Assembly (NCBI GenBank): GCA_030710605.1
Contig: CP092865.1
Span: 139,213,505 to 139,277,504, forward strand
Direction: 5' to 3'
From: Cordylochernes scorpioides
Lineage: Eukaryota > Arthropoda > Arachnida > Pseudoscorpiones > Chernetidae
Length of the DNA: 64,000 nt
Shown: positions 2,150 through 40,962 of the stretch, piece after piece
How positions within the stretch are numbered: position 1 is the stretch's first letter
Layout of the letters: each line of letters opens with the position of its first letter
The notes under the pieces: model-generated
Seen by the model: only the letters and a program-made list of their open reading frames with translations
Databases searched by the model: none
Told to the model about the DNA's origin: nothing
Translations under genes and position numbers: made by a program

Positions 2150-2400
2150 AAAGAATGATGTGGGCGGGGTAGAGCAGAAGGTCAGTCAGTGGAAGCAGAC
2201 GCCAAGTAGGGGCAGGAAACGCATCAGCCGATACTTCCGGATGACCTCGTTCTGTTCTCTCGTCTGCGGAGAAAGTCCTCCATTCTTAAGGAGGGGGTCA
2301 CGAGATGTGGCACAAATAAAAAATATCATTTTTAACATCGTTTGATTTCAAATTGTTTTGGGCGCCATTTTGATTCCCTACTTTTAACTCTCTAAAAATA
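2150..2400. other. GC-richer segment, possible promoter; function unknown
   Basis: A GC-richer island in AT-rich DNA, present almost unchanged in the other arm (49040-49290). It holds an ETS-like ACTTCCGGATGAC and a GGGCGCCATTTTG block resembling overlapping E2F and YY1 sites. A 117-codon open frame crosses it (1992-2345) and is nearly identical in both arms. It shows no recognisable domain, so I do not call it a gene. Confidence 0.25.
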
Positions 2401-2693
2401 AAATAAAAATATACTATTTTTAAAAAACGATTTATGAACGTAAAAAAAAAATATATTTTTAGTGATGCTCTCTTTTTTTTTTTTTTTCTTTCTTTCAAAG
2501 AAGTTTTTCTTTTTGATGAATGAGTTTTATATTTCTATTTAAATTTTCTATATATATATATATATAGTGTAGAAACTATATAACAAAATTATAACAGTGA
2601 TTCTAAATATTTTTCTAAATATTTTTCTAATCTTTAAATGATCATAATAGTGAAGATAATCTTAATACAAACCGGACTATAAAATTAAATAAC

Positions 2694-2750
<57 letters not shown>

Positions 2751-4230
2751 ACATGATTTTGTTTTAAATTTTAAAGGAAGGGTATTATATACCTATACAT
2801 AATTTGTCAAAAATAGGAAAAATAAAATGTTTTTATTTGCATGTATAAGTGCATCTAGTTTTGTGTATTAAAAGACAAAAATATAATTTATAAGATTGAT
2901 AAATTTTAAATGATAAATTTTAAATATTTATATTTTTACGTTAACTATTTTTTTATAGATATAAAATAATTTATTTTTATTACTTTTTCAGCATAAAGAG
3001 AAAGTGATAAAACTATTAATAAAATTATATTATAATAAACTATAAAATACTACATTTTTTAAGTGTATTGTTTTTATTAAGATTATATGCCCCCTTTAAT
3101 TTTTTTTATCAGTATATTGATTTTTATAATAAGATCGTATAATAATATTTTTACATAATTCTTATGATTATAATTTAAAAATCATTTTAATAATAGCTTT
3201 TGCACTTTTAAGACATTTCACACTTTAATTACATTTTATTACTAATCGATATTTTTCGAAAATTTTATAAAAAATTGTAGATATTATTCTCTAGATAATT
3301 TTTAGTTTTATTAGAAAGATATTTTATTTTAATTGAAATTAGTCTATTTTAGACATTTTTATATCCATTTTTATTCAATTAATAGAAATAATACATTTGA
3401 ATTTTTTTTAAATAAAGTTAATTATTGTTTAATATGGCTTTACATTTTTACTATATTATCGCTACACGATATTTACAAAGCCATATACAAAGCCGATACT
3501 TTAGCCATTTTCATAACTGCGTTTTTTTTTAGATTTTTTTTATAGGTTCAAAGTCAACAACACTTAAGTTAGCCTTATCCTTGAGTGCTTCGATATTCAT
3601 TCAGAAATAGGAAAATTAATATTATTCGAAAATTAATAAATATATTCAATTTTGAAAATTTATATTTACTAGAACATTAGCTTATCACACATATGATGGA
3701 GAAATTTCTAAACCAAATGCTAACTTGTATCATGTTTTCATTTAACATTTAAATCTATTCAACAAAATAACCTGTATCGATAATTAATATGAAAACATCA
3801 GATTTCGAGGGATAAACCTTTTTTTTAAATCCGGTTTTTGTATATTCATAGATTTCATTCCTTTGGATAAGAAAGCTTATTCGTCTAGGGTTAAGCTGAC
3901 TTTTATTTTATTTCAATTAAAGCGCTATGTCCCCTTAGGGACACTTGCGCTGTCATACATGTATGTCTTTACATTTGTCTATACATATATATACAATAAT
4001 TTTAGGCCGTGAATAGAATAGCCATATGATGTTAACAATGAGAAAGAGAGAGAAAAAGAACTGTGTACAAAGAAAGAAGTGTTGATAGGTTAACTATTTT
4101 ATTGAGGTTTTCGTTTAGATTTACTTTAGGGTTATTAAATATCAATGCCCAGCTTTTTTTTATTTAAAAAAAGAAACTTATCCCTTGAAGCCTAATGATT
4201 TTATTTTAATTTTTTAAACCAATATTTATG
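2401..4230. other. AT-rich stretch, no gene seen; (TA)n at 2697-2748
   Basis: Very AT-rich sequence with a pure TA dinucleotide run. Around 3920-3990 a short GC-richer block (AAGCGCTATGTCCCC) resembles one at 22018-22050 and may be a shared repeat end. The mirror is 40714-48440 of the right arm, where the LTR element inserted. Confidence 0.7.
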
Positions 4231-4233
4231 AAA

Positions 4234-4860
4234 GTCGGTGGATGAGAGGGTAACACGCTCGATTCCCGACAATAAGTCGGTGGATGAGAGGGTAACATGC
4301 TCGATTCCCGACAATAAGTCGGTGGATGAGAGGGTAACACGCTCGATTCCCGACAATAAGTCGGTGGATGAGAGGGTAACACGCTCGATTCCCGACAATA
4401 AGTCGGTGGATGAGAGGGTAACACGCTCGATTCCCGACAATAAGTCGGTAGATGAGAGGGTAACACGCTCGATTCCCGACAATAAGTCGGTGGATGAGAG
4501 GGTAACACGCTCGATTCCCGACAATAAGTCGGTGGATGAGAGGGTAACACGCTCGATTCCCGACAATAAGTCGGTGGATGAGAGGGTAACACGCTCGATT
4601 CCCGACAATAAGTCGGTGGATGAGAGGGTAACACGCTCGATTCCCGACAATAAGTCGGTGGATGAGAGGGTAACACGCTCGATTCCCGACAATAAGTCGG
4701 TGGATGAGAGGGTAACACGCTCGATTCCCGACAATAAGTCGGTGGATGAGAGAGTAACACGCTCGATTCCCGACAATAAGTCGGTGGATGAGAGGGTAAC
4801 ACGCTCGATTCCCGACAATAAATCTGTGGATGAGAGGGTATCACGCTCGATTCCCGACAG
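4234..4860 (+). repeat. 42-bp tandem array, 15 copies, derived from a SINE head
   Basis: The unit begins GTCGGTGGATGAGAGGGTAA and ends CGATTCCCGACAATAA. Because 42 is a multiple of 3 and the unit has no stop in several frames, long open frames appear on both strands; they are not evidence of protein. A single-copy version of the same sequence heads the SINE-like element at 15598, so the array is an amplified tRNA-like head. Each unit keeps a near B-box (GCTCGATTCC). Confidence 0.95.
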
Positions 4861-5015
4861 TCATGAACCGGGATTGAATCCCGCGTTAAAATTTTGTTTA
4901 ATATGTGAATAACCTTCACATATTATTCACCGTTTCAATTATCATGAACTAGGTTGCTCTTGCTGAGCGGTACCTACGAGGTACCTCGTATTGATGTGAA
5001 TTTGAACCAGGAACC
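4861..5015 (+). mobile_element. SINE-like body following the 42-bp array
   Basis: Directly after the last unit comes an AACCGGGATTGAATCCCGC block (T-arm/B-box-like), then a tail with CATGAACTAGGTTGCTCTTG and a short GGTACC-containing hairpin. The same tail follows the single-copy head at 15598-15780 and its mirror at 27560-27722. The sequence is tRNA-derived; the exact 3' end is uncertain. Confidence 0.6.
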
Positions 5016-5419
5016 AGGAGCTGAAGTTTAAGCTAGGGAGCAGCTTGTAATGGGATAAGAAAAATTCTACTCAATCTCTTATTGTAGAACGATATTTGTA
5101 AATTATCCCGAATGTGTTTCTTTTGAACGAAAAATCGAAATTTATTTAAAGGAGAAATAACGATTATTTCAATCTCTTATACAATAATTAACTTTACTTG
5201 AGATAAAACTAAATTGTAATATTTGTATTTATAAATGTGTGTGTGTTATTGCTATCTATCGATACTATTATTAGTTACAGATTATTTGTATTTCTTGATT
5301 GAAAAATATATAAAATGTCTAATATATATAAGCCAAATTTTAAAATTATTTTTTTTATTTCGAATATAAAATAGGAATCCTATTATTATAGGATTTTCAC
5401 TGTGAATTTAAAAATTTAA

Positions 5420-5712
5420 GGGGGTCGGTGGAAGTGAGAGTCTAAACCGTTGGTTTTGGACCGCTACGACCCGGGTTCGATTCCCGCATTGAGCACTTTT
5501 TCTGATAAATGGCCCCCGATTCTTGCAAAAGTCCAAACCCACCAGCGAGTGCAATTAATCAAACGGGTTCTGGCACATTTGTAAATGCAAAGTCGAACTG
5601 CTTTTCTCATGTGTAGACATGTGGTGCACTTACAGTAAAAACAGTCGCTTACTTCTTCCAACCATGATTATCATGGCCTGTACCACGTGTACTAGGGATA
5701 AGCAAAAAAAGG
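5420..5712 (+). mobile_element. tRNA-derived SINE, about 290 bp
   Basis: The head is tRNA-like and carries a perfect pol III B box GGTTCGATTCC at 5474-5484. A conserved body contains CATGTGTAGACATGTGGTGC, and the element ends near ACTAGGGATAAGC plus an A-rich tail. Copies occur at 39109-39392 (mirror, minus strand) and 63466-63765 (outside the palindrome), which shows a dispersed family. The 65-codon antisense frame across it is a shadow. Confidence 0.9.
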
Positions 5713-7654
5713 TATTTAAAAATGTATTACTAAAAAATGTAAAAGATAATTAAAACATAAACACATTGTTATTTTAAGCCTTATTTATAGTTATTTTACA
5801 TACATTGTTGATTAAACGTTAATAATACTCTGCTTCAAATATATTTACTAATATAGCGAACTTAAAAGTTAGTTTGAAATCTATTTAGAGTATTATTTCC
5901 TTCAGGGTTAGTCAAAACTGACTATAATAGAAACATCGTCTGCTAAATTGAAGGCATTCGTGTTGACTTTGCTTAGAATTATTAATGAAACTGATCCCAA
6001 TAATTATTAATTAAACATTATATTTATTGATTTACAAGAGAGAGAACAAAATATAAAAGGGAAACTAATATTAAACAAAGGAACTTTTTTCTGTTTCGGT
6101 TAGCTCCTATTTACCTGTGAGCTTACACACACTCTATGGTAACAATTAATTAATATATATACAACAATTCGTAAATTTTAGAGAATGAAGATTTGAATAA
6201 AATAATAATAATAAAAGAAATATTATACAGATAAGTTAAAAATGATCTTCAATATTTTATTCAAATTAACAGACTTCAAACGAAGTTTAAAACTCGTGAT
6301 CTGTTTTCTTCATAATGCGTTGTGTCGCTGGAGACCCGCTGGCGATTTTCCACCAAATTCTATAACTGCGAACTTTTGCATATGTTGATAAGATGCAATA
6401 AAATTCTGTTAATTGTCAATTGTCGACGATTTTTTTTATTATATCTGTCAATGCTATTTAAAGAAGGTTATCTATAGACTATGTTTACAATATGTGACCC
6501 ATATCAGTTTATTGCAATTTTTAATTTCATTTTTATCTAAAGACTATAAAATATAAAACTTCAATAGCCTATAGGGGATGTTGGATAGTGATTTTCGCGA
6601 TTCGGTACAGCATATATTCTATTTTTTAAATATTAATAATAGCTCAAATTTATAGGCAAATAGGAATCAAAAGATTCCAATAGATTATAAAGAATATATA
6701 TTTCTTGATTTTTTTTCTTTTCTTCATAATATGTTTGAATATTTTAATGCGTACTTATATTCTATTCATAACAAATAATAATTGCTCAAATATATATATA
6801 TGCAAATAGGAATCAAAGATACCAAAAGATTATAAAGAAGTCATTCTATCTTTATCTTCTTCATAATCTGTTGGAATATTTTATAATGCGTATTTATATT
6901 CTATATTCAGTCTAGGCTTCAGGAAGAACATGGTTATTGCCAGGATTTGGTACCTCAATTTGCATATCACAAAAGCGAGTCTTAACTTTCATTGACTATT
7001 TGTTCAGGGCGAATACAATTTCACAAAATACTGCATTTTGATTTGAGTCAAAAGATCGCCAGAATACACCCTTTTTTGCTGTTACGATATATTTTATGCA
7101 TTTCCTTATGAGAAATAAGGAAATTCACAAAATCTATCGTAACAGCAAAAAAATGGGATATTCTAATAAAGTGAAATAGTAGAACCAATACTCCTTCTGC
7201 ATTTTCCCCATTGAATTAATGTTTACCAATATGCGCGCGCAAATATAGTTTGACAAATGTTTGAACTCTGTCCACTACATCAGCAGGAATTCCCTTGACT
7301 GAAGATCAATCAATATATAAAAAGACAAGACTATAAATATTTTTAAAAAAGAAAGCAAGGAACCCCCGAGCACAACTTGCTAGTGAAACCAACAGACCGA
7401 CAAAAAAAAACTAATTGGTCTTATTTTCCATCTAATCTAATCACTTAATTATAAACAATTTGGAACGGAATTTACAATTAAAATGAGGGAAGAAGAAAGA
7501 GTTAATAAGGCAACATCTTAAGTTTTCATTCCACTGCTCTTTTTGTCTTGATGGCCTCAAAGTACGTTGGCATCAGAGAAGGAAACAGTCTTATTCTGAA
7601 GAGAAGGATTCATCAGTGAATTTTCGAGAAAAAGAGGCAAGCAGATCATGATGA
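5713..7654. other. no gene seen; short hairpin at 7067-7157
   Basis: AT-rich sequence without recognisable coding. At 7067-7157 about 35 bases centred on TTTTTTGCTGTTACGAT are repeated inverted, forming a strong foldback. The hairpin is conserved in the mirror at 37655-37745. Confidence 0.6.
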
Positions 7655-8225
7655 ACGATCTTGTGAAATATCCAGTAATATCTCAACTTAAGTTGTATAA
7701 ACTCGCATAAAATTGAAGTTGTGAGTGTTTTTTAGTAATTCTTAAACAAAATATGTAAATATATCTTGAACGAATAGCTTTGTGCAAAATGTCCAGTAAT
7801 ATCCAAATATCCCAGTTTACGTTGCATAGACTTACATTAACTTGAAGTTGCGCGTGTTCTCTTGATTTCTAATGATTCTTAAACAAAAGAAGTAAACATA
7901 TCTTGAACGTATGGTTTTGTAAAAATGCCCAGTAAATCTCAGCTTACGTTGTAAAGACTTTTATAAACTTGGTGTTGGGCATGTTCTTGATTTCAAATGA
8001 TTCTTAAACAAAAGAGGTAAACACAAGATATTGATGAACGAATGACTTGGTGAAATGTACAGTAATATCTCAGCTTACGTTTCATAGACTTACATGTATT
8101 CAGAGATACGTACATTCATGATTTTCGATAATCTTCAACAAGAGAGATGAAGATGGATCTTGCTGAAGGAATGGTTTTGTAAAATATCCAGTAAATCCCA
8201 ATTTACTCTCCACGGACTTTACAGA
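7655..8225. repeat. degenerate tandem repeat, unit about 125 bp, 4-5 copies
   Basis: Each unit contains a segment like CTTGAACGAATGG, then CCAGTAATATCTCAGCTTACG, then TTCTTAAACAAAAGAGGTAA. The mirror array at 36340-37165 has a similar copy number with different mutations. Confidence 0.8.
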
Positions 8226-8424
8226 TATTCAAAAATTCTTCACTGTATGTGTGTCATAACACGTATTAATATAAGGTAGGAACGCGCCATCTATATAAAG
8301 GAAATGAAAGCTTTATATATAAACACGATTGTTTCTTGTACACATAAAACAAACTTCTAACTGGCCTTGTCCTTATTGTTTTCGAAAGAACATTGCTCGA
8401 TGCAAATATTTATATGTAATTCTA

Positions 8425-8655
8425 CTGTCCTAAAAACTTATATCCATAGTTTACTTGAATAACATTTCTAAGATTCCACACTTCAGTCTAGCCTATATAA
8501 GCAGAATTGTTCAATATAGCATTAGAGCTCTAAGAAGCGGTTTGGTACATATTGGTGTAGATTAAATTGGTGAAACCGCTGGGAAGGTTCACCACTGATG
8601 AGCCAAACCCTCCCTATATATTTTTCATTGCAATAAGGATAATAGAAGTTTGTTT
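8425..8655 (+). mobile_element. element A (foldback, HHR-like core), left copy 1
   Basis: It has eroded ends of the form TTCTACTGTCC...GGATAATAGAAG and the family core at 8536-8606: AGCGGT, TGGT, TTGGT-GAAA, ACCGCT, ACCA-CTGATGA, GCCAA. Compared with other copies a short stretch is inserted between the second and third helix strands. The mirror copy is 35695-35950 (minus). Confidence 0.75.
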
Positions 8656-9990
8656 CATGTGTAAAATAATTGTGCTCTAAATCTTTACTTTCCTATACTA
8701 CGTATGGTAGACGTGCAGTCTCCATTTACGAATTGCGATTATTGTGATCATGTTATGCGTTTTGGATACAACTTGAAAGCTAGTCGGATAAACCAAGCCG
8801 TTACAAGAATCCCAAGTCAGAAGAATTTTACGTCAATCTGATATATCTATCAAATCTTTCATCCAAAATGATAGTTCGATGTTAGAGAGAAGGAATCATG
8901 TCAAGAGGTCAAATTGTACAAAATAATTTCCCCCAAAAGGATCCAATCAAAAGGAAGAGGCATCCTGACCAGAAATGCGGAAGTGGAAGATCCCAAAGAG
9001 TTGATAGATCCTTTAATGACAGTAGGTCAATTGTGGGGATATCAAATTACAATCGTTCTTAGAAACAACGTTTCGTTTTTTTTTTAGCGAGTTTTAATCG
9101 AATATTTATTCACCTATTCCTGTTCTTTCTAAAAGAATAACAATATTCCATCGTATCAGCTAAAGCAATAATTCTATTTCTTTTATTTCAACACACAAAA
9201 CGCGATATCTCGAATAGGGGATAATTGCATCGATTTACATTTTTAAACAGAAACGGTTATAAACATATTATACAAAAATTAAATGAATAAAAAAAAAACC
9301 GATGAGATATATTAGAAACCTGATACTTCCAGGTTAGAAAGATAATCATAAATATAATTACAAAAATAGTTAAACCTATGATAATTCTCTCCGCTATTTA
9401 CAAATTGATATAGATCTACAACATTGTTTACTGTCTGTTGTCTAGCGCTAAAAAGAGTGGACATTCCAACAGTAGGTGTCTCGAGTCCTGGTTTAAATAA
9501 AGCAATATTAGAATTATGAAAATATTGTATCCAAATATTTATATTTTACGAACAGGATATTAAGTTTAATATTTATATCTTGTGCTATTCTGTTTATACT
9601 TCCCTTATTGCTTGTCTTGTATTTTTTAAATTTCAGTTTGTGCTTGTGTCTTAATAAATTGCTGCGTCATCCTTAAGTTTGACTTTCCAATTTTCTACGT
9701 TACAATATTCTTTTTATATTTCGGGAAAGTGATGTTGACATAATCAGAAGAGGTAAATTATTTAAAATACGACACACTTCTACCAGTTTATTTTTTAGAG
9801 TATCTCTCTATTTTATTTTATTTTAATTTTGTTTTAAAACGTGAACAAGATTTTTGTCTCAAATGTCGAAAAAAAAAAAACCTCTTCTGAGGCCTAAGTC
9901 TTTTTTTTATTTTATTTAGAATGCCGGCCAGGCAATATCTATTTTCAGAAGATATGTGCAAATAAGTACCATGTTATCGTCACGTTACTA
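8656..9990. other. no gene seen
   Basis: Unique-looking AT-rich sequence matching the right arm at about 33600-35690. At 9845-9960 lies a fragment of a dispersed family also seen near 15480 and 33600 (shared GCCGGCCAGGCA and poly-T stretch). Confidence 0.5.
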
Positions 9991-9992
9991 TA

Positions 9993-10196
9993 TACACTCA
10001 TGGACAAAACACACATAGACAAGGAAATGGAAAATCTTTGATGTCACCTGTTTGTTTGTTTGAAGGAGACAGAGTCAATTTTGTTCACACTTGGTTATCT
10101 CGTGTGTCTTCAATAAAGGTCTCTGTAATATCTTTCAGAATCCCGATATACATGCTAAAAGGTACAACTTCCTCAAGTTTTGTCTATGAGTGTATA
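9993..10196. mobile_element. Tc1/mariner-type MITE flanked by TA
   Basis: Inverted ends CACTCATGGACAAAAC and its complement (GTTTTGTCTATGAGTG) are flanked by TA on both sides. It is about 200 bp with no coding capacity. The mirror copy (32868-33545) has one inner segment amplified into a 76-bp tandem array. Confidence 0.75.
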
Positions 10197-10261
10197 ATTG
10201 TTGATTTTTAATTATTTTACAATATATTAGCCAAATACCCTTTTTCTTGATTAATCAAGGA

Positions 10262-10320
10262 AACTCAATCAAGCACGCGTTTCAAGCTATTGGATATCAG
10301 CGTGGGGAGGGCCTAGCTCA
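10262..10320 (-). ncRNA. degenerate hammerhead ribozyme remnant
   Basis: On the minus strand it reads CCACG-CTGATA, an eroded stem II, then GAAACGCGT. These pieces match the intact ribozyme at 31588-31629, but the core has lost G8/A9 and a pairable stem II. Not expected to cleave. Confidence 0.5.
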
Positions 10321-10399
10321 TCCGTGGCGAACTCTCCCAGCGGTTTTAGTAGTTTTATCGAAAAGACAGCTCGGGTATTATATTGAGCTATTGTTCCAT

Positions 10400-10905
10400 T
10401 CTAGCTAGTAATTTGAAGGAATTCATTGTACATGTATTTGGGGTTTATGAACCTCCCTTTAAAAAATAAACGATTTATAGCCCGTCAAAGGATTCTATGG
10501 CTATTTTTCCCCGAGGATATCACGGGATTTTGGAACAGCAACCCTTTAAATTGCTACTTCTGCAATGTTGGTATCCAAGACAATTTGGTTCATTATCTAT
10601 TCCATTGCCCATTCCTTCATGAAAAGAGACTGGAAATTCACGAAATTTCGGGGCTAACTCACTATAATGAACAACATGTGTATAAAATCTTCACTACTCT
10701 CCTGCTGGATAAAACATTTGTTTATAAATATTTAAAAAATTTCAAGGCGATTGATAAAATGAGGGAAGAAGTGCTCAACTCCACAGACAACGGCTGATTG
10801 CTCCCCCTCCCCTGTAAATTGCTTTTACTCCTCACTCATGTACATATATAACCTTTTAGGGGAATCCCCTTGTAGGACAATAGTGTCGTAATAAAGGTTT
10901 TGTTG
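10400..10905 (+). mobile_element. 5'-truncated LINE (non-LTR retrotransposon) 3' end
   Basis: A C-terminal coding fragment is followed by a short 3' UTR ending in AATAAAGGTTTTGTTG. The same architecture (last ORF codons, GGGGAATCCCCTTGTA-like hairpin, AATAAAG, GT-rich tail) recurs near 21100 and in the 124-bp array at 56985. The mirror copy is 32155-32650 (minus). Confidence 0.8.
10426..10797 (+). pseudogene. LINE ORF2 C-terminal zinc-knuckle fragment
   Basis: 123 codons with no reverse transcriptase motifs, only the C-terminal tail of a LINE ORF2. Residues about 44-62 contain the knuckle: CYFCNVGIQDNLVHYLFHC has the spacing C-x2-C-x8-H-x4-C seen at the end of many LINE polyproteins. In the full protein this region follows the RT and is thought to bind nucleic acid. 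The methionine at 10426 is only the first in frame; the true N-terminus was lost by 5' truncation. The mirror copy is frameshifted inside the knuckle. Confidence 0.8.
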
Positions 10906-11032
10906 TATTTAGGGTTGATGCGATATATTCCTATTATCCCAAAGCCCTTATGTCCAAAATGTCCTAAATACCAAGAATTCCTCCAGAACATACCAATACA
11001 ATAGTAGAGCGGTTTATTCAAAGTTAATATTT

Positions 11033-11128
11033 ACTTAGGGGTCTGGGTAGACACGAATGGGTGGTCTGAACCGTTGGTTTTCCACCGCTACGAACCGGGA
11101 TTGAATCCCCACATCCCTGGAGGACTTG
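11033..11128 (+). mobile_element. tRNA-like SINE head fragment
   Basis: TCTAAACCG/CTGAACCG, GTTGGTTTTCCACCGCTACG and a degenerate B box in GGGATTGAATCCCC resemble the head of the 5420 SINE. The 3' body is absent. It lies just downstream of the LINE tail, as does its mirror at 31953-32035. Confidence 0.65.
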
Positions 11129-11202
11129 ATATTTTTACTCAATATATCTTTATATCTATTTACTTCCCTAGTATTTAACCTTATAAAACCTTATATCAAA
11201 TA

Positions 11203-11620
11203 CGAAACTATTTTAGACGCGTAATATTCTTTTTAAAATAAAACAATTTCTACTGCCCTTACTGCAATGGAAAAATTGCATATTTGCGGAAGAGCGATTG
11301 CTCGAAGCATATTATATATTTATAATTATATGTAATTCTACTGTCCCCTTAAAGCTTATGTCCATAGTTCATCTAAAATACCCATTCGAAGAGTCGAGCA
11401 TCAGTATCACTATAAAAGGAAGTTCCAAAAAATGCAATATAACAGCGGTTTGGTAGATTAAACTGGCGAAACCGCTGGGAGGGTTCACCACTGATGAGCC
11501 AGGCCCTCCCTTTAATTTTTCTATTGCAGTAAGGGCAGTAGAAATTGTTTTATTTTAAAAAAGAATATTACGCGTCTAAAATAGTTTCGTAATTTGATAA
11601 CAGATGGCGCGCTAGTGTAT
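11203..11620 (+). mobile_element. element A, intact left-only copy with long inverted ends
   Basis: About 75-bp inverted ends (CGAAACTATTTTAGACGCG ... complement) lead into TTCTACTGCCCTTACTGC and its complement. An unpaired tail after the right end contains CAGATGGCGCGCTAGTG. Flanking CCTTATAT (possibly up to 12 bp with the preceding A-run) is duplicated. The other arm has the empty site, so this insertion is younger than the arms. Confidence 0.8.
11444..11502 (+). ncRNA. hammerhead-like motif in permuted strand order
   Basis: In order: AGCGGT-T (11444-11450), TGGT (11451-11454), CTGGC-GAAA (11463-11471), ACCGCT (11471-11476), ACCA-CTGATGA (11487-11497), GCCAG (11498-11502). Helix III is AGCGGT/ACCGCT, helix I TGGT/ACCA and helix II CTGGC/GCCAG. 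All start flush with the conserved CTGATGA, GAAA and NUH boxes. Helix II differs from other copies by a matched change (TTGGC/GCCAA elsewhere). The strand order is not one of the three natural HHR permutations, so activity is uncertain. Confidence 0.5.
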
Positions 11621-11639
11621 CGTAAAACCTTATATGAAA

Positions 11640-11987
11640 GATCTAATAGATATTTCATATTAAATTATTTCGTGTTTTATTCATTTAGATATTTTATATT
11701 ATATATATTTTTATATTTAATATATGAAGTCTCGAGATATATCATTCAACCAGCACGTATCATCCACCACGCACGTATATTTTACAAACAGAAATAAAAT
11801 AATATATTTTTCTCTCAATATATAATAAGTATTTAAAATATGTATATAATAATGTGTATATAAAAAGTGTATTTATTATTAAGTTGTTAACGTTATAATC
11901 CTGTTGAAGGACTGACAAGTCTGAAAGCTTGAAAATAAAAAAGTTGCACAAGAAACTTAACCCTTGAAGCTTTATTTATTTTATAAT
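11640..11987. other. AT-rich, no gene; HHR-like remnant near 11898
   Basis: No coding supported. A recurring phrase CTGTTGAAGGACTGACA followed by AGTCTGAAAGCTTG (11898-11931) resembles a decayed HHR core and recurs near 15070, 15910, 27400 and 28000. Confidence 0.4.
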
Positions 11988-12259
11988 ACACCAATATACC
12001 TCGCTTTGCGTCGTTTTGTTTTGCGTTTTTTTTTTTTTCGAAGTTGCGTCGCTGCTTAATTTTTACTGATTTTCACTGTGCGTCGTTAGATTTTCGAAGT
12101 TGTGTTGTTTTGGATTCGAGTCTTTTAATTTTTTTCCCTAAAATATGGCAACACCTTTGTTTTTGATTGCGCCTTCACATATTTTCACTTTGCGTCGTTT
12201 CAATTTGCGTCGTGTTTTTTTTGGAACGTAACCCCGACGCAAAGCGAGGTATGGGTGTA
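11988..12259. mobile_element. pogo/Tigger-like MITE
   Basis: Inverted ends TACCTCGCTTTGCGTCG and its complement flank about 230 bp rich in GCGTCG/TTGCGT words. Both the end sequence and the internal style resemble Tigger ends of the pogo family. The copy is too short to encode a transposase. The mirror copy is 30788-31063. Confidence 0.75.
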
Positions 12260-12767
12260 CTCCATATATATAAATATATCAACATTTTCATTGCTTTATT
12301 ATTTGACCGATCGTGCACATTGTAATAGCCATCATATTTTCTTCACCGATGATACTGGAGACAATAAAAGTTTGTTTTATATGTAAAAAGAAACACTCGC
12401 TCGCTCAATGATTTCATTTCTTGCAGATAAATGGCGTGTTATTGTATTCCAATGACAAAATGTAATACCAGGTTCCCCGTAGTAAAATAACAGTAAGGAT
12501 CCAATCAGAGATGAAAACAAATGACTAAATACTATTGGATTAAGCAAGAAGTTCATATGATCGGTAAACTGAAGTGCTTCTGAAAAGATTCAAGAAAGAG
12601 AAAATTGTAAGGAATAACAAGGCAGCATTGGACTGACGCATGCTGAGAAGAATCAGGTTTTCATCTTTATTAACAGACGGTTTAGTAAAACCATCAACTA
12701 TCAGGATGATCTAACTACTATACTGCTATGTAATTACTATCCACAAAGTATAGGTATACAATATATA

Positions 12768-13490
12768 TAAATTGAAAGGATTTAAAAGAACGAATGTTTC
12801 TTTTATACATAATACAAACTTCTACTGTCCTTACTGCGATGAAAAAAAAATATATGTCGTAAACCCGGGTAAGCCAACAAGTGAGTTGGAAGCAGTCGGG
12901 GTTGAGTGGCAAAGCGTGCAGAGTGAGAAGTCCGCACGGGACAGTAAGGACAAAGTTTGGGATCAAAAGACGCTCTCCTAGTACGTCTCACGTGGCACCA
13001 GGACCAGGGGAAAGTTGAGGATTAACTGAGGAAAGCTCGGCGTCCTGCATGAAGCCGCGGAGGCAGGGAGGAACCAAAACGGCGGCCACGAGGGCCGCCG
13101 TGAGATGAAAACGGACCTAGACTCAGCGGGCCTGTCCGAAAATATAAACAGTAATCTATCAACATCCGGACCAACGCCCTTTTTGTCCCTCTCTGGATCC
13201 TCCGGGGGTCCGGTGGCAAGCTGGTGTCACTTTGAGACGACTAGAAAAGACGTCATACTTTATTACTTACATATCACATTGTTTAAATTACGATAAATAT
13301 GGGAGGGCTTGGCTCATTAGTAATGAACCCTCCCAGCGGTTTCGCCAATTTAATCCACCAGACCGCTTCTCAGAGCTCTAATACTGTATTAGACGATTCT
13401 GCTTATATACGTAGCACTGAAGGATGGAATCTCAGAAATGGTTTTCAAGAAAACTATGGACATAAGCTTATAGGACAATAGAATTACATT
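12768..13490 (-). mobile_element. element A copy split by a GC-rich insertion
   Basis: The two flanks (12768-12853 and 13295-13490) together match the uninterrupted mirror copy at 29945-30250. The HHR-like core is on the minus strand, but CTGATGA has become CTAATGA and one helix I strand is altered, so this core is broken. Confidence 0.75.
12854..13294. mobile_element. 441-bp GC-rich insertion of unknown origin
   Basis: It is absent from the mirror site. Flanks carry a duplicated AAATAT, and the ends are short inverted TCGTAA/TTACGA. Inside, base composition is far richer in G+C than the surroundings (GGCGGCCACGAGGGCCGCCG forms a strong hairpin near 13080). Short open frames exist on both strands without recognisable domains. 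It could be a small transposon or a captured genomic fragment. Confidence 0.6.
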
Positions 13491-13499
13491 CAATATATT

Positions 13500-14280
13500 G
13501 CCACGTGGAAAATTAGGGAAGACAAAAACTTCAGGAGGAGACAACAATTTATTTCGGGCAAGAACAAACTATGAATGGTAAACAAAAGATAAGCCACGAG
13601 GGAAATTTACAGAGTAGCAAAATATAAACATAAAAATATGACTACTCTGTTAATAAAACTAATAAAATTTTAAAAATACTTTGTTACAATATGAATACTA
13701 AGAAATTACTAACTAGACTTATTTGACATAGTATTATTGTGGTTTTCAACAGAACATCTTTAATTGGTTATTCTGTGATATTATGCATTAGCGCGCCATT
13801 TATTATAAGAAATTACAAATATTTTTGTCGAATGTTTCTTTTGAAATAAATTTTCTACTGCCCTTACTGCAACGGTGAAACCGCTGGAGGGTTGACCACG
13901 AATGAGCTAAACCCTCCCAATATTTTATCATTACAGTAAGGATAGTATGAAATTGTTTTAGAAAATAATCATACGCATCAAAAATAATTTAAATATCTTA
14001 TTCTGGGTTATGTTGACTGTGGTGTATTTAGGTTGATTTAAAAGTAGAAATATATTTTAGGCTTTATTTATTTAAATGGCTTTTATTATATTACACCGTA
14101 TTAGATGCAAGATTAAGAATTACAAGTTAACAATCGAATTATATGATGATAAATTATATGTTATGATATATATACAATATATCGCAGAATCTGTGGATTT
14201 AATATTATTATTATATTAATATATTATATACCTTATTATATTATTAAAATATAAATATACGACATTGACTATTAACGAAT
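13500..14280. other. no gene seen; element A fragment at 13845-13960
   Basis: The fragment has TTCTACTGCCCTTACTGC and its complement around a shortened core that lacks the first helix strands. Its mirror is 29215-29335. The rest is AT-rich with no recognisable coding. Confidence 0.6.
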
Positions 14281-14284
14281 TGTT

Positions 14285-14400
14285 CATATTGAATTCTGCG
14301 TACAACATTCTCATTGTCAAGTTTTTATCCTTTTTCATATGGCTTCCAAAACTGTCTGGTTTATCGACATTTTGATGGTCAACCTCTTTCTTTTTCATTT
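14285..14400 (-). pseudogene. mariner (irritans-like) transposase N-terminal relic
   Basis: On the minus strand the phrase LTMRMLYAEFNMNNSLIV follows the pattern of the second helix-turn-helix of irritans-type mariner transposases (TRMLAEEFNV-like, then STIVRRL). The upstream sequence is shifted out of frame. The mirror at 28640-28950 retains more of the upstream helix. No catalytic domain follows. Confidence 0.6.
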
Positions 14401-14734
14401 GCTAATTAGCTTTTAACCCTTGGTTTGTTTTTTTCTGATAGTTCTTTCGCCAAGAGCTTGCTAATGGTTATGTTTCTATGTTCTAAACTTTCTTGAAGTG
14501 TTAGAGAATATAATGAATATGGGTATGTGGATTTCTGGTATGGTTATTTCATTATCTGAAAGTATAGGATTATTCTCATTGAAAAATATAACAAAAACGT
14601 TGATTTAAAAGAATAAAAAGAGTTGAGGATAAAAAAAAGCCTCAATAATTTTTCACAGACCAATATCGTTTTAATTGCCAAGTACACACATACATATAAT
14701 ACATAATAAAGGACTGCGGGGTATGATTATAAAC

Positions 14735-14990
14735 AATATTTAAAGTTGCACTACATAAGTTTCTTTTTTTTGTGAAAAATCAATATTTATTTCAAAGAGA
14801 AATATCTAGTATTTCTAACTTTTTTGGATGACGTATGAGAGGGTGGAAATATGAAGCGTGATGGTCTATATATAATTGGATGACGTATGAAAGGACGTCA
14901 TCCAAAAAAGTTAGAAATACTAGATATTTCTCTTTGAAATAAATATTGATTTTTCACAAAAAAAGAAACTTATGCGGTGCACCTTTAAGT
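14735..14990. mobile_element. foldback MITE, family B
   Basis: Arms of about 120 bp starting near AAACAATATTTAAAGTTGCA are repeated inverted, containing GAAAAATCAATATTTATTTC. The same arms, more diverged, bracket the gene fragment at 16922-17285. The mirror is 29470-29705. Confidence 0.8.
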
Positions 14991-15084
14991 ATTGTTTACA
15001 CATACATATGTATATAAGATAATTCTCTGAGGGAAAAGTTTCTTTCTATAACGACAATACAAGCTTTCAGGTATAACAACCCTT

Positions 15085-15210
15085 CGACAGGTATATCTAT
15101 TATACTGGTCTGGTAGATTAAATTGGCTAATTCGCTGGGAGGATTCACCACTGAGGACCTAAGCCCTCCCAATATATTTTTCATCGCAGTAAGGACAGCA
15201 GAACCTTTTT
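15085..15210 (+). mobile_element. element A, degenerate copy
   Basis: It contains TGGTAGATTAAATTGGCT, GCTGGGAGGATTCACCACTG and a GCAGTAAGGACAGCAGAA end. The core is mutated (CTGAGGA, no GAAA). The mirror is 28105-28255. Confidence 0.65.
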
Positions 15211-15597
15211 GTATATATAAAAGAAACTTATATATATAGTAATAAAAATTAAGGAGAAAAGATTTTTTATTTAGATAAAGGTGTGACAAGCTTTCGGGCA
15301 GTCACGCCCTTCAACAGGTAGCAAACTAAGGTAACAAAAAGCTTTATATAGGAATCTATTTGAGGTATATTTGCATAAAAGAAACTTACATGTTTAAATG
15401 TTTACTTTTCTCATATATAGATGGCGTGTTATTGTCCAATAACTAAATTCTAGTATCGTAGGTATACCTATCGTAAATATAGGGGCTGCCTGGCCGGCAT
15501 TCATAGTTCTATGAAAACTAGACACTTCGGCCAGTTGGAGTTTTCTATTTTTCCCAACGTTTCGACAAAAATCTTTTGTCTTTGTCTGTATCAACAA

Positions 15598-15780
15598 AGT
15601 CGGTGGTTGAGAGGATAACACGCTCGATTCCAGACAGTCATGAACCGGGATTGAATCCCGCGTTAAAATTTTGTTTAATATATGTGAATAACCTTCACAT
15701 ATATTATTCACTGTTTCAATTATCATGAACTAGGTTGCTCTTTCTGAGCGGTACCTATTAATGTGATTTGAACCATATTA
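15598..15780 (+). mobile_element. SINE-like element with unamplified 42-bp head
   Basis: One copy of the GTCGGTGG...GATTCC head is followed by AACCGGGATTGAATCCCGC and the CATGAACTAGGTTGCTC tail. It represents the state before tandem growth seen at 4234. The mirror is 27560-27722. Confidence 0.65.
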
Positions 15781-16014
15781 GTTATCGATTTTGGTATATA
15801 TATTTTTTGTCTGGAGAAGTAAATAAAAATAAAACATTTGTCAAGACGTTAAAAATAAAATAAAAACTCTAACTGGCCGAATTGTCTATTTTTCATAGAA
15901 GTAGGTATACCTGTTGAAGGAATGTTACACCAGAAAGCTTGTATTGTCGTTATATAAAAAAATAAACTTCTCCCTCAGCAAATTGTATTTTATTTATAAA
16001 TTTACTGAAGGGAT

Positions 16015-16495
16015 TATCATATTAATAAATCTTTAATTAAAAAATCATATATTGGATCAAAATATCATTTATTTTACCAATATTTCAGTTGGCTGAACGC
16101 CAACCTATATCAAGGTGTTATAACATTTTAAAGTGTGTCAACAACAAACTCTGCGCCACATAACGTCAACAGCATTAAGTTTTAAAATTATTTTGTTATA
16201 TTCAATGGGGAGGAAAAATTTTATATATATATTTATATTATGGAAAAATTTATATTTTGTCCATAATATAAATATATATCAATTTTTTTCTTCCCATTGA
16301 ATATAACAAAATATTTTGAAAACTTAATTCTGTTGACGCTATGAGGCGCTGAGTTTGTTGTTGACACACTTTAAAATGTTATAACACCTTGATAAAGGTT
16401 GACGTTCAGCCAACTGAAATATTGGTAAAATAAATGATATTTTGATCCAATATATGCCTTTTTAGTTAAAGATTTATTCATGGATTGCTCTATTT
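16015..16495. mobile_element. foldback element, family C, arms about 230 bp
   Basis: Arms begin AATAAATCTTTAATTAAAAA and include CCAATATATG/CATATATTGG and a GTTGGCTGAACGCCAAC hairpin. They meet at an AT-rich centre near 16240. The mirror is 26825-27300; relics lie at 54575-54830 and 55625-55740. Confidence 0.85.
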
Positions 16496-16921
16496 TCAAA
16501 ACAAAAATATTAATATATGTAGTTGGAAAGATTTCGAACATAGAAAAGTAGCAATGACTTTCCATCAGAGTAACGCTAATGAAAAAGAAAAATCAGACAA
16601 AAAGAATACCAAACGATGTGTTAGAAGAAAGAAGAAAAGTGGGAAAAAGGCAGACGATAGGGTGTTCCAATTCTTAATTTACGGCTTCAGTTTTGGGGCC
16701 ATGCTGATAACTTAGCAGGTCTCGCCCAGCTGCCTCATCTGGCATCGCACAATCCGACAACATGTTAGGAACGATCATACCTGAATAGATCTAGGTGTTT
16801 GAGCATTTTTATGAACATTATTATCAAACTATATAAATTTATTAACGAAACTGGTGTGGTTTGTGGTTAATTTATCATTACTAGTAAAGTGGTTTTACAA
16901 GGGAGAAGAACATAATACATC

Positions 16922-17285
16922 GTAAAACAACACTTGAAGTTACACCGCATGAGTTTCTTTTCAATGAAAAATCTAAATTTATTTCAAGGTGAAATATTGA
17001 CCATTTCTAACCTTTTTGGAGGATTCATAATCTTGTATGTATTTATAAGAACTAAGGCTCTATTTTTCTTTCCATCAGTGATGTTATAATCCATAATTAC
17101 CTTAATTCTTTTGTAGACTTCATCAATTGTAGGGTTTTTATTTGAATTTAAAATGTCTTTGACAACCTTGTCATAAACATCATTTAATATTTAATATTAG
17201 AAATGGTCAATATTTCACCTTGAAATAAATTTTGATTTTTCATTGAAAAGAAACTCATGCGGTGTAACTTCAAGTGTTGTTTTAC
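16922..17285 (-). mobile_element. foldback element carrying a captured gene fragment
   Basis: Inverted arms of family B type (ACTTGAAGTTACACCGCATG ... complement) enclose about 200 bp of protein-coding origin. This is the layout of a MITE that has picked up host sequence. The mirror copy at 26033-26395 has the same content, so capture predates the arm duplication. Confidence 0.75.
16984..17190 (-). pseudogene. farnesyl-diphosphate-synthase-like exon fragment
   Basis: Open for 68 codons on the minus strand with no usable start. The pattern DEVYKRIKVIMDYN then GKKNRALVLINTYKI matches the N-terminal part of short-chain prenyl (farnesyl) diphosphate synthases, where a helix ending in EYN is followed by GGKxNRGL and a hydrophobic helix. 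The first DDxxD substrate motif would lie further downstream and is absent. G-G has become D-G and RGL is RAL. The frame runs past PPKRLEM and stops in the foldback arm. A captured exon piece, not a gene. Confidence 0.65.
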
Positions 17286-17399
17286 AATCACAGGCCGCAG
17301 TGTATTATATTGTATTAATACATCGTTCTAATTAATATTTAAAGGGAGAGGTACATCTCTAGATACATATTATATTTAATTTCTATTTTTTTTTAAATG

Positions 17400-17984
17400 G
17401 TGCTGGTGGTGAGATGAGATTGAGTAGTCGAGGGATTAAAGAAGATCAAAACACTCCACTCTTAACGGGTTTATTTAGTAACCAATCGTCCAAGTTTTAC
17501 AAAATTAATGGTAATAATAAACTTGAGGAATCTTAACAGGTAGAATATCTCAATCTTGAGAGAAAAAAAACTTAAACAAAAATATAGTAAATTTACATAT
17601 TGGATAACAAAAAGAGTCTAACTAACTCGACTAAGCAAAAAAAACAAAACAATATTTATATCTACATCAGCGCCGTCTGGACTTCTCGGCGTCACAGAGT
17701 TACTCTATGAAATAAACAATAAAATAAAAATACAATTTATGTAGAAAATATGGTAAAATTATTTACAACATACATATAACGTTTTATCTAAACAGCCTTT
17801 TGAATATATGCATGCTCGAAAGTCTGCAACATTTCCAAAGATCAACATATCCTTTGTCCAACACACAACTTTTTGTTCCTTTTTTTTTAAGAATTCCTGG
17901 GAGATTTGTATACATTATTGTGTTAAATACACCCCAATCCTATTAAAATGACATCTTATAGTCGTGCATCTGAAAGTTACTGAT
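17400..17984. other. no gene recognised
   Basis: Mirror-conserved sequence (25290-25930) with a GGTGCTGGTGGTGAGATGAG block at one end. No domains, LTR ends or tandem structure were recognised. Confidence 0.4.
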
Positions 17985-18300
17985 CACTTGCGCCATCTGT
18001 CGGAATAACTTATATCAATAAGGATGATTGCAAGAAGTTTCTTTATCAAATTAAAACGGCCAATTTAACTTATTGCAATCATCCTGATATTGATACGTGT
18101 GAACCCCATAAAGGTCGCCTCTCCCGGCAAAATAGAAGCTAAAACAAAGTGCTCTATTGATTGTCACCACGAACTAGCAGACTCAGGTCGATGACAAAAC
18201 CACAACACCAGCTTTGGTAATCTGAGAAGTGTCCACCCATACACCGTAGTTTCGGGCTAATGGTCCTCGTCAGTCTAGGGCGGAGTCTAGGGTCAAAGGT
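17985..18300 (-). mobile_element. HHR-bearing element, left copy
   Basis: It contains the tail word GCGCCATCTGTCGG (complement of the AGATGGCGC tail), a long inverted pair built on ATAAGGATGATTGCAAGAAG, and an HHR core at 18238-18280. The mirror copy is 24900-25290. Confidence 0.6.
18238..18280 (-). ncRNA. hammerhead ribozyme, partly degenerate
   Basis: On the minus strand: CTGACGA (rc of 18267-18273), a stem II reduced to GGA...GCCC, GAAA (rc of 18250-18253), and GTA as the cleavage triplet. The core boxes are intact, but stem II has one mismatch and helix I pairs poorly. Confidence 0.45.
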
Positions 18301-18369
18301 AGCTTACGGTAGCAATGAGGCATTTGTCACGCTTTAATTTTTATAAGATTGAAAGAGGCACAATTTGGA

Positions 18370-18900
18370 TTAAAGATTATAAACACAAGGTTATAAGACC
18401 AAATAAATAATGTGTGATGTTTCTGCAACAGCGTTGTTACCATCTTCAGACAAAAGTACTGAATGATTATAGATTATAAACACAAGGTTATAAGACCAAT
18501 TCCAAATAAATAGTGTGTGATGTTTCTATAACAGCGTTGTTACCATCTTCAGACAAAAGTACTGAATGATTATAGATTATAAACACAAGGTAATAAGACC
18601 TATTCCAAATAAATAAATAGTGTGTGACGTTTCTGTAACAGCGTTGTTACCATCTTCAGACAAAAGTACTGAATGATTATAGATTATAAACACAAGGTAA
18701 TAAGACCAAATAAATAATGTGTGATGTTTCTGTAACAGCGTTGTTATCATCTTCAGACAAAAGTACTGAATGAAAAATTTTACCACAGCATGTGATATAT
18801 TTTCTCATTCAGTACTTTTGTCTGAAGATGGTAACAACGCTGTTACCGAAACGTCACACTATTTATTTGGATTTGGCCTTAATACCATGTGATTTTTATA
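18370..18900. repeat. four tandem units of about 103 bp plus one inverted copy
   Basis: Units start GATTATAAACACAAGG and end CAGACAAAAGTACTGAAT (18376-18775). An inverted copy follows at 18800-18890, giving a foldback with one arm multiplied. The mirror (24560-24890) has the two inverted copies without the tandem growth. Every unit contains an HHR-like core. Confidence 0.8.
18822..18855 (+). ncRNA. minimal hammerhead-like core
   Basis: CTGAAGA (matches CUGANGA), one extra T, stem II GGTAACA/TGTTACC with loop ACGC, then GAAACGTC. Stem III would be only ACGT, self-complementary, as in minimal HHRs thought to work as dimers. Helix I is weak (ACA/TGT). The tandem minus-strand copies have lost GAAACGTC (GAAACATC). 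Confidence 0.4.
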
Positions 18901-19099
18901 AAAAATTCATTCTCTTTCTTAAATGTACTTATAAATTTGAAAAAAAAAAAATGTAAATAAAATGTCTTCACAAAATATTACCACTAACATAATTAGTTTA
19001 CTAAAAGTTCAAGTTTGCTAAATATAAAACATTTTCAGGTGAATTAGTCCCAAGACTAATGTGACTCTTTAAACAGGTTCCTTCAAGACCATTGATGTA

Positions 19100-20212
19100 T
19101 ACTACTCGCTGTTGATAGGTAGACATAACAATCAACTACACTATATTTGTAGGTGTAATGGGGCTTATTTCCACAGTTGTATGAAAAGGTTTTATCTGTT
19201 ATATAATGGGGTCACGCTACAAGGCAATCCGGAACTAAATTCTCGAAAACTGAATTATTTATACAAAGGCCTTCCAACAGAGAGCATAGGACAATCAACA
19301 GTAGTCGACTGTTGAAGAACAAGGTGGTAAAAATGCCTACAAACAGCAAAGTAAACTTATGTTTGAATGGGTTGTTTATGGACAAAAACTGCCCATTCAC
19401 TAGGTATTTTCAGTTCTTGGCTGTAAAATGGTAGAGCCACAGCAGCCAGTTGGTCCTCTCAATCGAACATTTTCATGGGGAAAATTATGCAGTAGGAATG
19501 TCAATTTTGGGCCCAAAGACGTCTTTCTTCACACCAGCTGAACTTGTCGCTTCTGTTTCATGAAGATAGTGGAATTCTTAATAAAGACTGGCGACTACGG
19601 AGTTCTGCTTCGATATATGACGTTATTGATGGTTATTCTAGTCCCATTGTCTTCCGTATTCATATGACATTGACCTACTAGCTGGTTTATTCTCTTCTCT
19701 TGAAGTCATTTCCAACTTCAATGACAAGTGAGTGATATTAGGATGGAGACTTATCTCGGTCTTAGCTCGGCCTGGAAAGCCACTCTGGGTGTAGTCCACC
19801 CTCAGCTAAACGGAAAACAGCCAAGTATGGACTTTCCCTTCCTCGGGGATGGGATCCTATACGTATGAGACCAAAGAATGAAACCAGAGGAATCCTTCAT
19901 CATGACAATGTCATAGCCCACAAAGCTTCAAAAACAATGGATTAAAAAAAGAAAATCGGATTCAGTTGATTCGATACCCACCCTACAGGCCTCATCTTTC
20001 TTCCTGTCACTTTTGTTACCAAAAAGTTAGAAAGTTTGCGTGGAATCAAATTTACAAGTCCTGATGCTGCCGCGAAGTGCTATCTAGAGATACTTGAAGA
20101 CATAAGCCCAGATGAGTGGAAAACAAATTATGTATCCTTTGTTCAAAGGATGGACAAATGTATTGAGTGTATAGGTGATTATTTTAAAAAAATATATGAA
20201 TTTTATCAGTAG
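19100..20212 (+). pseudogene. mariner transposase pseudogene
   Basis: The C-terminal part is clear: HHDN at 19898-19909 (second catalytic Asp in mariner), a PPYRPHL phrase in place of PPYSPDL, and the last residues DEWKTNYVSFVQRMDKC followed by GDYF, stop at 20210-20212. Several stops and frameshifts lie between, and the third catalytic Asp is read as His. The N-terminal region is not confidently recognised. Mirror: 23225-24370 (minus), diverged and also broken. Confidence 0.7.
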
Positions 20213-20280
20213 TAACTTTGCGAAGATCATGTGAGTTGGAAGTACATTCATAGAAAAAATATAAGCTACATTAACCAATG

Positions 20281-20350
20281 AATTTATTATCCTGGGTTCA
20301 AAGGATGGACAAATGTATTGAGTGTATAGGTGAATATTTTATTGAAAAAT
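20281..20350 (+). repeat. duplicate of the mariner C-terminal end
   Basis: It repeats the GTTCAAAGGATGGACAAATG to ATAGGTGA segment of 20130-20180. The mirror arm has the same duplication near 23080-23200. Confidence 0.65.
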
Positions 20351-20459
20351 AAGATTTTGAACAGTAGTAGCTGTAAATCAAATTTAATTGCCATCTATCG
20401 TTAATATTTTACACAAATAAATTTACTGGCAATGCGCTTCTTTTAAATATCATCAAATA

Positions 20460-20575
20460 TTATCTCTACAGACCTTACTGCATTGATATGAGTTATTGAA
20501 TGAAAGGGCTTGGCTCATCAGTAGTGAACCCTCTCAGCAACGGTTTCGCCAAATTAATCGCTAGACCGCTCTACT
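20460..20575 (-). mobile_element. element A, left-only copy
   Basis: An end reading CTACAGACCTTACTGC and the family core are on the minus strand. No counterpart exists at the mirror site near 23060-23240. Confidence 0.65.
20510..20570 (-). ncRNA. hammerhead-like motif, permuted order, best-preserved copy
   Basis: Minus-strand order: AGCGGT-C (20570-20564), TAGCG (20563-20559), TTGGC-GAAA (20552-20544), ACCGTT (20544-20539), CACTA (20526-20522), CTGATGA (20521-20515), GCCAA (20514-20510). The cleavage triplet is the canonical GTC. Helix I has changed at both sides relative to other copies (TGG/CCA to TAG/CTA). Helix III tolerates one G-U. Core boxes are all intact. Confidence 0.5.
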
Positions 20576-20639
20576 AGTAATCTCTAGTAGTAACTGTGCT
20601 AAGATCATTCGTTAGAAGTAGATTCAGAGAAAAACACAG

Positions 20640-31360: not shown

Positions 31361-31824
31361 TTAAGAAAAATATTCCGATAGATGGCGCAAGCCATCAGCA
31401 ACTTTCAGTTGCACAATAAGGAGATGCCTTTTTCTTAATTTATCCACCTTATTCCAGTACAATATCACATTTGTACAATGTTTCACATTGTGTAGCGTCC
31501 TCACGCAATTCTGGCCTTAACTACCCGTTTCATGATTTTTCAGGATGCCTTAATGACCAATTTTTTGGTCGTTGAGGTACAGCTTGCACCACGCTGATGA
31601 GGGCCAACAGCCCGAAACGCGTCCGTGGTTAGCTTTTCTTGATTAATCAAGAATAGGTATTTGGCCAATTCTGGAATAATTAAAAATCAACGAGAATAGT
31701 TGATATTTATTCCGATAGATGGCGCAAGCCATCAGCAACTTTCAGTTGCACGATAAGGAGATGCCTTTTTCTTAATTTATGCACCTTATCCCAGTACAAT
31801 ATCACATTTGTACTATTTTTTCAC
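31361..31824 (+). mobile_element. retrozyme-like insertion: partial dimer of a 337-bp HHR unit
   Basis: The insertion is flanked by an 11-bp duplication ATAATATAAAA (31350-31360 and 31825-31835) and is absent from the left arm. A 106-bp direct repeat (31371-31476 and 31708-31813), offset by 337 bp, shows about 1.3 head-to-tail units. Each repeat starts TATTCCGATAGATGGCGC. One complete HHR lies between the repeats. Head-to-tail units with one self-cleaving ribozyme per unit are the hallmark of retrozymes copied from circular or multimeric RNA. No protein is encoded, so it would depend on another element. Confidence 0.75.
31588..31629 (+). ncRNA. type I hammerhead ribozyme, complete
   Basis: Helix I ACCACG (31588-31593)/CGTGGT (31624-31629), core CTGATGA (31594-31600), helix II GGGC/GCCC with loop CAACA (31601-31613), core GAAA (31614-31617), then a cleavage triplet GTC with the predicted cut after 31623. 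Helix III strands form the self-complementary word ACGCGT (31617-31622). Its hairpin would be too tight alone, as in the minimal HHRs of Penelope-like elements that are proposed to cleave as dimers. Every conserved core position is present. Confidence 0.85.
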
Positions 31825-40713: not shown

Positions 40714-40962
40714 TTTCATAAATATTGGTTTAAAAAATTAAAATAAAATCATTAGGCTTCAAGGGATAAGTTTCTTTTTTTAAATAAAAAAAAACTGGGC
40801 ATTGATATTTGATAACCCTAAAGTAAATCTAAACGAAAACCTCAATAAAATAGTTAACCTATCAACACTTCTTTCTTTTGTACACAGTTCTTTTTCTCTC
40901 TCTTTCTCATTGTTAACATCATATGGCTATTCTATTCACGGCCTAAAATTATTGTATATATA

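Follow-up and report, generated by a model that had tools for sequence, protein, structure and literature searches.

A hammerhead ribozyme has a small set of boxes and helices, and the classical types I to III differ in the order in which its strands are joined. In the window, by which we mean the whole analysed stretch of 64,000 nucleotides from the genome of the pseudoscorpion Cordylochernes scorpioides, all of these parts lie together in an order that none of the three types has. Is this a ribozyme, and if so, what is it doing in an arachnid genome? A sequence-only reading of the window had placed the feature at 11444..11502 and had regarded a knotted ribozyme acting in cis, or action within a tandem transcript, among the conceivable explanations.

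Fold and identity of the core

All boxes and helices were located on the plus strand in 11444-11510, and the non-circular 5'-3' order of site, GAAA and CTGATGA is read directly in the core, as had been claimed. Block S (11444..11454) consists of the stem III 5' strand AGCGGT (11444-11449, with U16.1 at 11449), H17 at 11450 and the stem I 5' strand TGGT (11451-11454); the NUH site is GTT with H17 = T, and the predicted cut falls at 11450|11451. The linker AGATTAAA (11455-11462) connects stem I to stem II at their distal ends, which had been seen as well. Block G (11463..11476) holds the stem II 3' strand CTGGC (11463-11467), GAAA (11468-11471), whose last A is also counted in stem III, and the stem III 3' strand ACCGCT (11471-11476). 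Next come GGGAGGG (11477-11483), a separating TTC, and block C (11487..11502) with the stem I 3' strand ACCA (11487-11490), CTGATGA (11491-11497) and the stem II 5' strand GCCAG (11498-11502). One G then precedes CCCTCCC (11504-11510). As GGGAGGG pairs with CCCTCCC, a fourth helix of 7 bp, here called the interaction helix, links stems I and II on their other sides, and the core runs beyond 11502 to 11510; the earlier extent was too short, and it missed this helix as well as the mobile element around it.

All blocks of the core fit inside 67 nt. The core carries the G10.1-C11.1 and A15.1-U16.1 pairs of the hammerhead numbering, and with them the invariant set of CUGAnGA, GAAA with A15.1-U16.1, H17 other than G, and G10.1-C11.1. 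When only nested pairs are allowed, the RNA folds into two adjacent hairpins, AGCGGT/ACCGCT and GGGAGGG/CCCTCCC (z -3.38), and stems I and II are pairings between the loops of these two hairpins. Self-pairing of the whole-unit RNA is weak (z -1.31, for a copy with a changed G12 base). A custom descriptor for this order, which the sequence-only reading had proposed, gave a single match on both strands of the window with stems of at least 4 bp, and 0 matches when the window, with its N removed, was shuffled 200 times under preservation of dinucleotides; these figures are descriptive only, since the descriptor was written after the site was seen.

Is the order new? Non-circularly permuted hammerheads were described from environmental RNA by Eckert et al. 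2023 (PMC10085705), whose type SGC has the order site-GAAA-CUGAnGA, a short linker between stems I and II, and a helix tying their other sides. The window core shares with it the block order, the three stems, the I-II helix, the intact core and the NUH site. Thus the claim of an order outside the known types holds against types I to III and fails against a published fourth order that fits exactly, and the claim of a new permutation has to be rejected. Judged by its sequence, the window core is a predicted type-SGC, that is, non-circularly permuted and pseudoknotted, hammerhead; the knotted cis ribozyme is the best of the earlier readings. The same source reports 583 predicted type-SGC sequences, and all five natural examples that were expected to work cleaved themselves in vitro; in SGC-3, breaking any of four helices abolished cleavage, and compensating changes rescued it. 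Some details differ. Stem I has 4 bp in the window core and 5 bp in HRIMA-1; the linker has 8 nt where 3 are typical; and the gap between stem III and the interaction helix is 0 nt, of which that paper has few cases.

The setting differs more. The authors of PMC10085705 report type SGC from no known organism's genome, their sole RNA from such a genome being one type-GCS candidate, and almost all of their motifs are exclusive to metatranscriptomes, the exceptions named being other ones; the window core, unlike these, is genomic and repetitive. A literature search of open-licence papers found no report of type SGC in a eukaryotic genome or retroelement; two papers other than the original contain the words of its title, and both, to judge by title and opening of the abstract, describe software. 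The novelty is the genomic mobile-repeat setting, not the block order. Database models give no hint of it: the hammerhead families of Rfam 15 had no match at the gathering cut-off in the window SGC core or in seven loci, and none in 11200-11620 at E up to 10, so that the Rfam hammerhead models are blind to this class. One exact core stretch had 0 matches in viral contigs and 0 in prokaryote genome contigs.

The repeat that carries the core

What kind of sequence carries the core? The host genome is eukaryotic and comprises 2.62 Gb in 24 contigs at chromosome scale. A search with the core gave 926 candidates at first look and at least 41 listed matches; among the matches listed, 40 have 98-100% identity over 90-91 of 91 bases and one is partial. 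The repeat is a non-coding unit of 371 bp, which forms tandem runs of up to at least six copies in the fetched loci. Since units occur in tandem, the classical order could be reached across them: the strands might pair in classical topology between neighbouring units of one transcript, for example the site and CUGAUGA of one with GAAA of the next, in analogy to the amphibian satellite hammerheads that act as dimers. We hold this to be very unlikely. The blocks lie within the 67 nt of a single core, where they are held together by the interaction helix; this helix agrees with the cis SGC fold, and its counterpart in the published SGC-3 is required for cleavage (PMC10085705). All blocks are present even where an element has just one ribozyme (the window copy, L013, L021 and L042), and a type I or III order, with loops of up to about 90 nt, was not found in the SGC arrays L009 and L053.

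The copies were also surveyed as clusters. Setting aside those shorter than 150 bp or lying within 60 bp of the end of a locus left 47. A head-to-head layout, with a minus array followed by a plus array, is seen in 27 of the 47. A tail of about 30 bp stands at one end only in 23 of these 27, and the outer ends lie at unit positions 137-155 and 164-196, counted from the cleavage site, in 23 of 27 (the exceptions are L025, L029, L038 and L044). An exact word of 12-17 bp is common to the two flanks of 20/27 head-to-head elements, or 19/26 if the duplicated pair L040/L041 is counted once, and of 2/20 of the other clusters (L022 and L042). With 200 random places of the same locus set against each left flank, 2-6.5% reached a word of that length. 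Could the repeat then be a decayed ribozyme relic that now travels as an inert repeat through TIR-like DNA transposition? The long terminal inverted repeats do resemble those of a MITE, and some copies are broken. Yet the one-ended tails, the tandem arrays and the shared flanks fit Penelope-like elements (PLEs) better than cut-and-paste transposition, and at least ten places, the window included, are identical to the window core over 91 bp, so that some copies are young and intact. This explanation is the least probable of those considered, close to negligible.

A sample of 20 hand-chosen 5-kb stretches at round coordinates contained one SGC element, in L053, which belongs to a second family, B, and any density estimated from this single element is very rough. 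The unit of family B is also 371 bp long. At 3806-4253 of the same locus, five 90-bp tandem repeats of a promoter-like stretch (with TATAAAAG) stand between two divergent SGC arrays.

The copy in the window is a mobile element of 426 bp (11197..11622, plus strand), made of a short inverted left arm followed by a nearly complete unit of the 371-bp type in sense. It is bounded by a 13-bp direct repeat, TAAAACCTTATAT, whose left and right copies (11184..11196 and 11623..11635) are read as a target-site duplication. The left inverted arm (11197..11277, minus strand; inverted repeats I3 and I4) is the tail-less end. A TATA-box-like stretch, TATAAAAGG (11411..11419, plus strand), lies 33 bp upstream of the ribozyme and may serve as a promoter; its TATAAAAG is retained in family B. 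The tail is found at the right end only (11597..11622, plus strand), with the motif GATGGCGC at 11603-11610, 152 nt past the predicted cut. The window ORF list has no frame of at least 150 aa near the element, so that the reverse transcriptase and GIY-YIG endonuclease frame of a PLE is lacking there; the element is therefore a non-autonomous parasite at most.

When did this copy arrive? The window itself is a large imperfect inverted duplication, with arms at about 1558-20372 and 23047-49883 and an identity of about 69-99% by segment. In the opposite arm, near 31.87-31.89 kb, there is an empty site with one target copy that differs by one base. Once the two flanks of the element are put together at the duplicated target, they match this empty site in a single alignment (165 columns, 79%, with gaps); the filled site needs two. 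As the opposite arm keeps the empty site, the window element moved after the inverted duplication arose. In that arm a different repeat, the one with the type I hammerhead described below, adjoins the empty site. The window holds 14 core copies, of which 10 form five mirror pairs set in the arms of the duplication, and these pairs are therefore not independent.

Some other features of the window are given for completeness. Tandem arrays open in several frames (VGNRACYPLIHRLI repeats) occupy 4201-4922 and 39897-40741 and are mirrored in the inverted duplication, and a low-complexity repeat array with a higher GC content, which has several open frames on each strand, covers 61458-62977. A frame of 672 aa at 43734-45752 (minus strand) has RNase H-like and integrase zinc domains and by these is probably a piece of a Ty3-like retrotransposon. 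At 54034-54095 (minus strand) there is a weak tRNA match of 32.6 bits (cut-off 29), not found by ARAGORN, which is possibly a SINE.

Conservation and covariation

If the core is used as a ribozyme, is it kept better than the sequence around it? Between families A and B, the 67 ribozyme positions give 63 match, 4 mismatch and 0 gap columns, and the rest of the unit gives 213 matches and 70 mismatches in 283 aligned columns, together with 42 gap columns. The ribozyme mismatches consist of an A-to-C change at H17, a change of one base in the linker, and a compensated change of one stem II pair from C-G to U-A.

For the comparison of copies, 93 full-length cores were collected from 39 sources, 54 of them distinct. 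The strict descriptor is passed by 56 of the 93 and failed by 37; this proportion shows no enrichment over decay, because most loci were fetched by likeness to an intact core, which biases it upward. CTGANGA is present in 83/93 copies and GGYGAAAC in 77/93. At H17, the 78 readable copies have T in 35, A in 26, C in 17 and G in none.

Pairs were counted in 45 distinct rows, the other 9 of the 54, which have insertions or gaps, being left out. Standard pairs fill 94.4% of 988 cells, against 35-56% with slid partners, and each of the four helices is paired in 93.3-95.2% of its cells. Changes on both sides of a pair occur in 18 cells, where 5.8 are expected by shuffling and none of 500 shuffles reaches 18; the covariation score is likewise reached by 0/500. 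By number of two-sided pairs (four) the signal is less rare, being reached by 45/500 shuffles, and the further pair types are reached by 116/500; slid versions give 0-5 two-sided pairs, but only 0-7 cells. Stem I has such changes at a single pair (2 rows), stem II at two pairs (12 rows and 2 rows) and the interaction helix at a single pair (2 rows), and none was found in stem III among the 45 rows. As the rows are related, the changes amount to about four events. One stem II change, at columns 30-65, comes from the mirror pair 10304/32685, in which stem I and GAAA are lost; this lineage has only two full-length genome matches among 40 scored of 121 candidates, both in the window. Among the copies left out of the counts, 20501-20578 (minus strand) has TAG opposite CTA in stem I.

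Variants of other kinds were seen too. Linker insertions occur in 3/54 distinct copies, as a 12-nt insertion in a mirror pair and as a G-run. In the mirror pair 8528-8615 (plus)/35748-35835 (minus), the 12 nt are inserted in the linker, where the SGC fold should tolerate an insertion. Four copies, namely L027 2065-2141 (minus strand) and three with an identical core, have one base too many at the cleavage site (GGTTATGG); this variant is probably inactive or altered, yet it has spread.

Might the conserved feature be something other than a ribozyme? A structured RNA or a DNA hairpin pair, for example a binding site of the reverse transcriptase, could be conserved and resemble a hammerhead without cutting. 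The nested fold is stable alone, and families A and B also agree closely in further blocks of the unit, near AGGACAGTAGAA and TTCTGCTGTCCT. What makes this explanation improbable is that the conservation extends to the unpaired catalytic bases and to the non-nested helices I and II, that G is absent from H17 in the 78 readable copies, and that sibling repeats of the same genome hold type I hammerheads upstream of the same tail motif.

A common tail and the likely machinery

How do these sibling repeats compare? A candidate type I minimal hammerhead is found in another repeat of the window (31588..31629, plus strand), with GATGGCGC 94 nt downstream; Rfam HH9 gives 26.5 bits at 31594, under its cut-off of 52. 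In 338,737 bases of the window and loci, a type I descriptor, run without a shuffle control, found 14 sites, the 13 others being in L011, L013, L014, L031, L037-L041 and L058. In 11 of the 14, GATGGCGC stands 91-96 nt past the cut. The same bases contain 58 SGC cores that pass their descriptor; 34 have GATGGCGC 144-154 nt past the cut, and 24 have none within 400 nt. Two type I units, of 338 and 351 bp, are tandem. Type I and SGC units have only short words in common (best E 0.035), the tail motif GATGGCGC among them. The simplest reading of these sequences would be that unrelated small elements use one reverse transcriptase by way of a common tail; a common origin of the tail through recombination is possible as an alternative. 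Copying of the SGC repeat and of the type I hammerhead repeats seems to rely on one kind of retrotransposon machinery.

Is such machinery at hand? At L050 4224-5000 (plus strand), a PLE-like coding fragment adjoins an inverted endonuclease-like piece. We assume it to be a PLE by its motifs; a Pfam search of the fragment found no family. In the genome, it has at least 147 matches scored of 18,536 candidates, and more than 12 of the scored matches are open frames of at least 785 codons, including near-identical frames of 785 codons; some are paired, in tandem or inverted, and examples of PLE-like elements lie around C7:73172530 and C12:86892596. With the GIY-YIG model, 146 of 150 scored matches exceed the cut-off, out of 17,015 candidates, GIY-YIG being a general domain whose model also matches in 12/14 control genomes.

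Two known systems can be compared with the element. Animal non-LTR retrozymes with type I hammerheads, whose circular RNA was shown, are described in PMC7229834. Like these retrozymes, with their short tandem non-coding units of 150-450 bp and target duplications of more than 4 bp, the repeat has tandem non-coding units of a few hundred bp and target duplications of more than 4 bp, and here as in the retrozyme hosts, PLEs are present in the same genome. The retrozymes differ in having a type I hammerhead instead of type SGC, and the circular RNA shown for them is only presumed for the element here. By its sequence, the element probably looks and works like a retrozyme, but as a variant. PLEs themselves, as described in PMC3846280 and PMC11167929, have tandem and inverted copies, target duplications, and pseudo-LTRs with an optional tail at one end (31 bp and 30-40 bp, respectively), which the latter explains by two start sites of reverse transcription; here the one-ended tail and the inverted or tandem pseudo-LTR layout (23/27) agree with this. 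Target duplications are 8, 9 and 10 bp in those PLEs, compared with the shared flanks of 12-17 bp in 20/27 elements here, the unit here has no reading frame, and PLE hammerheads are type I variants (PMC7229834, PMC11167929), not SGC. The hammerhead was dispensable for insertion in vitro in PMC11167929, and the ribozyme may therefore serve RNA processing, not insertion itself.

Taken together, the feature is very probably a type-SGC hammerhead, with cleavage predicted, on a non-autonomous, retrozyme-like retroelement that parasitizes PLEs. Transcription would start near the 5' edge of the ribozyme from the TATA promoter TATAAAAGG just upstream, and self-cleavage of each unit at 11450|11451 would produce a 2',3'-cyclic phosphate and, at 11451, a 5'-OH. 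Ligation might then close the monomers into circles. With a PLE reverse transcriptase acting in trans, copying could begin near the GATGGCGC tail and go round the template several times, which would give the tandem and inverted insertions. The type I retrozymes of animals behave in this way (PMC7229834). We also incline, with less assurance, to a wider scenario in which unrelated small RNA-circle retroelements compete for one PLE reverse transcriptase through the GATGGCGC tail, one lineage of them cleaving itself by the knotted SGC fold instead of type I.

What does this mean for hammerheads in general? The non-circular permutation of a natural ribozyme dates from 2023 and was found in RNA of unknown owners; here it is given a host, a life cycle and a comparison. 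The family is genomic, datable and present in many copies, in a eukaryote with chromosome-scale contigs, and sibling repeats with the classical hammerhead, seemingly on the same machinery, provide the comparison. It can now be tested whether making unit-length RNA is the only job of the ribozyme in retrozymes, and whether permuted hammerheads arise by convergence. If the scenario is true, non-circularly permuted hammerheads would not be curiosities of RNA replicons but working genomic parts of mobile elements in complex eukaryotes, and the topology of the ribozyme would be freely exchangeable, provided that the cut is made upstream of the tail.
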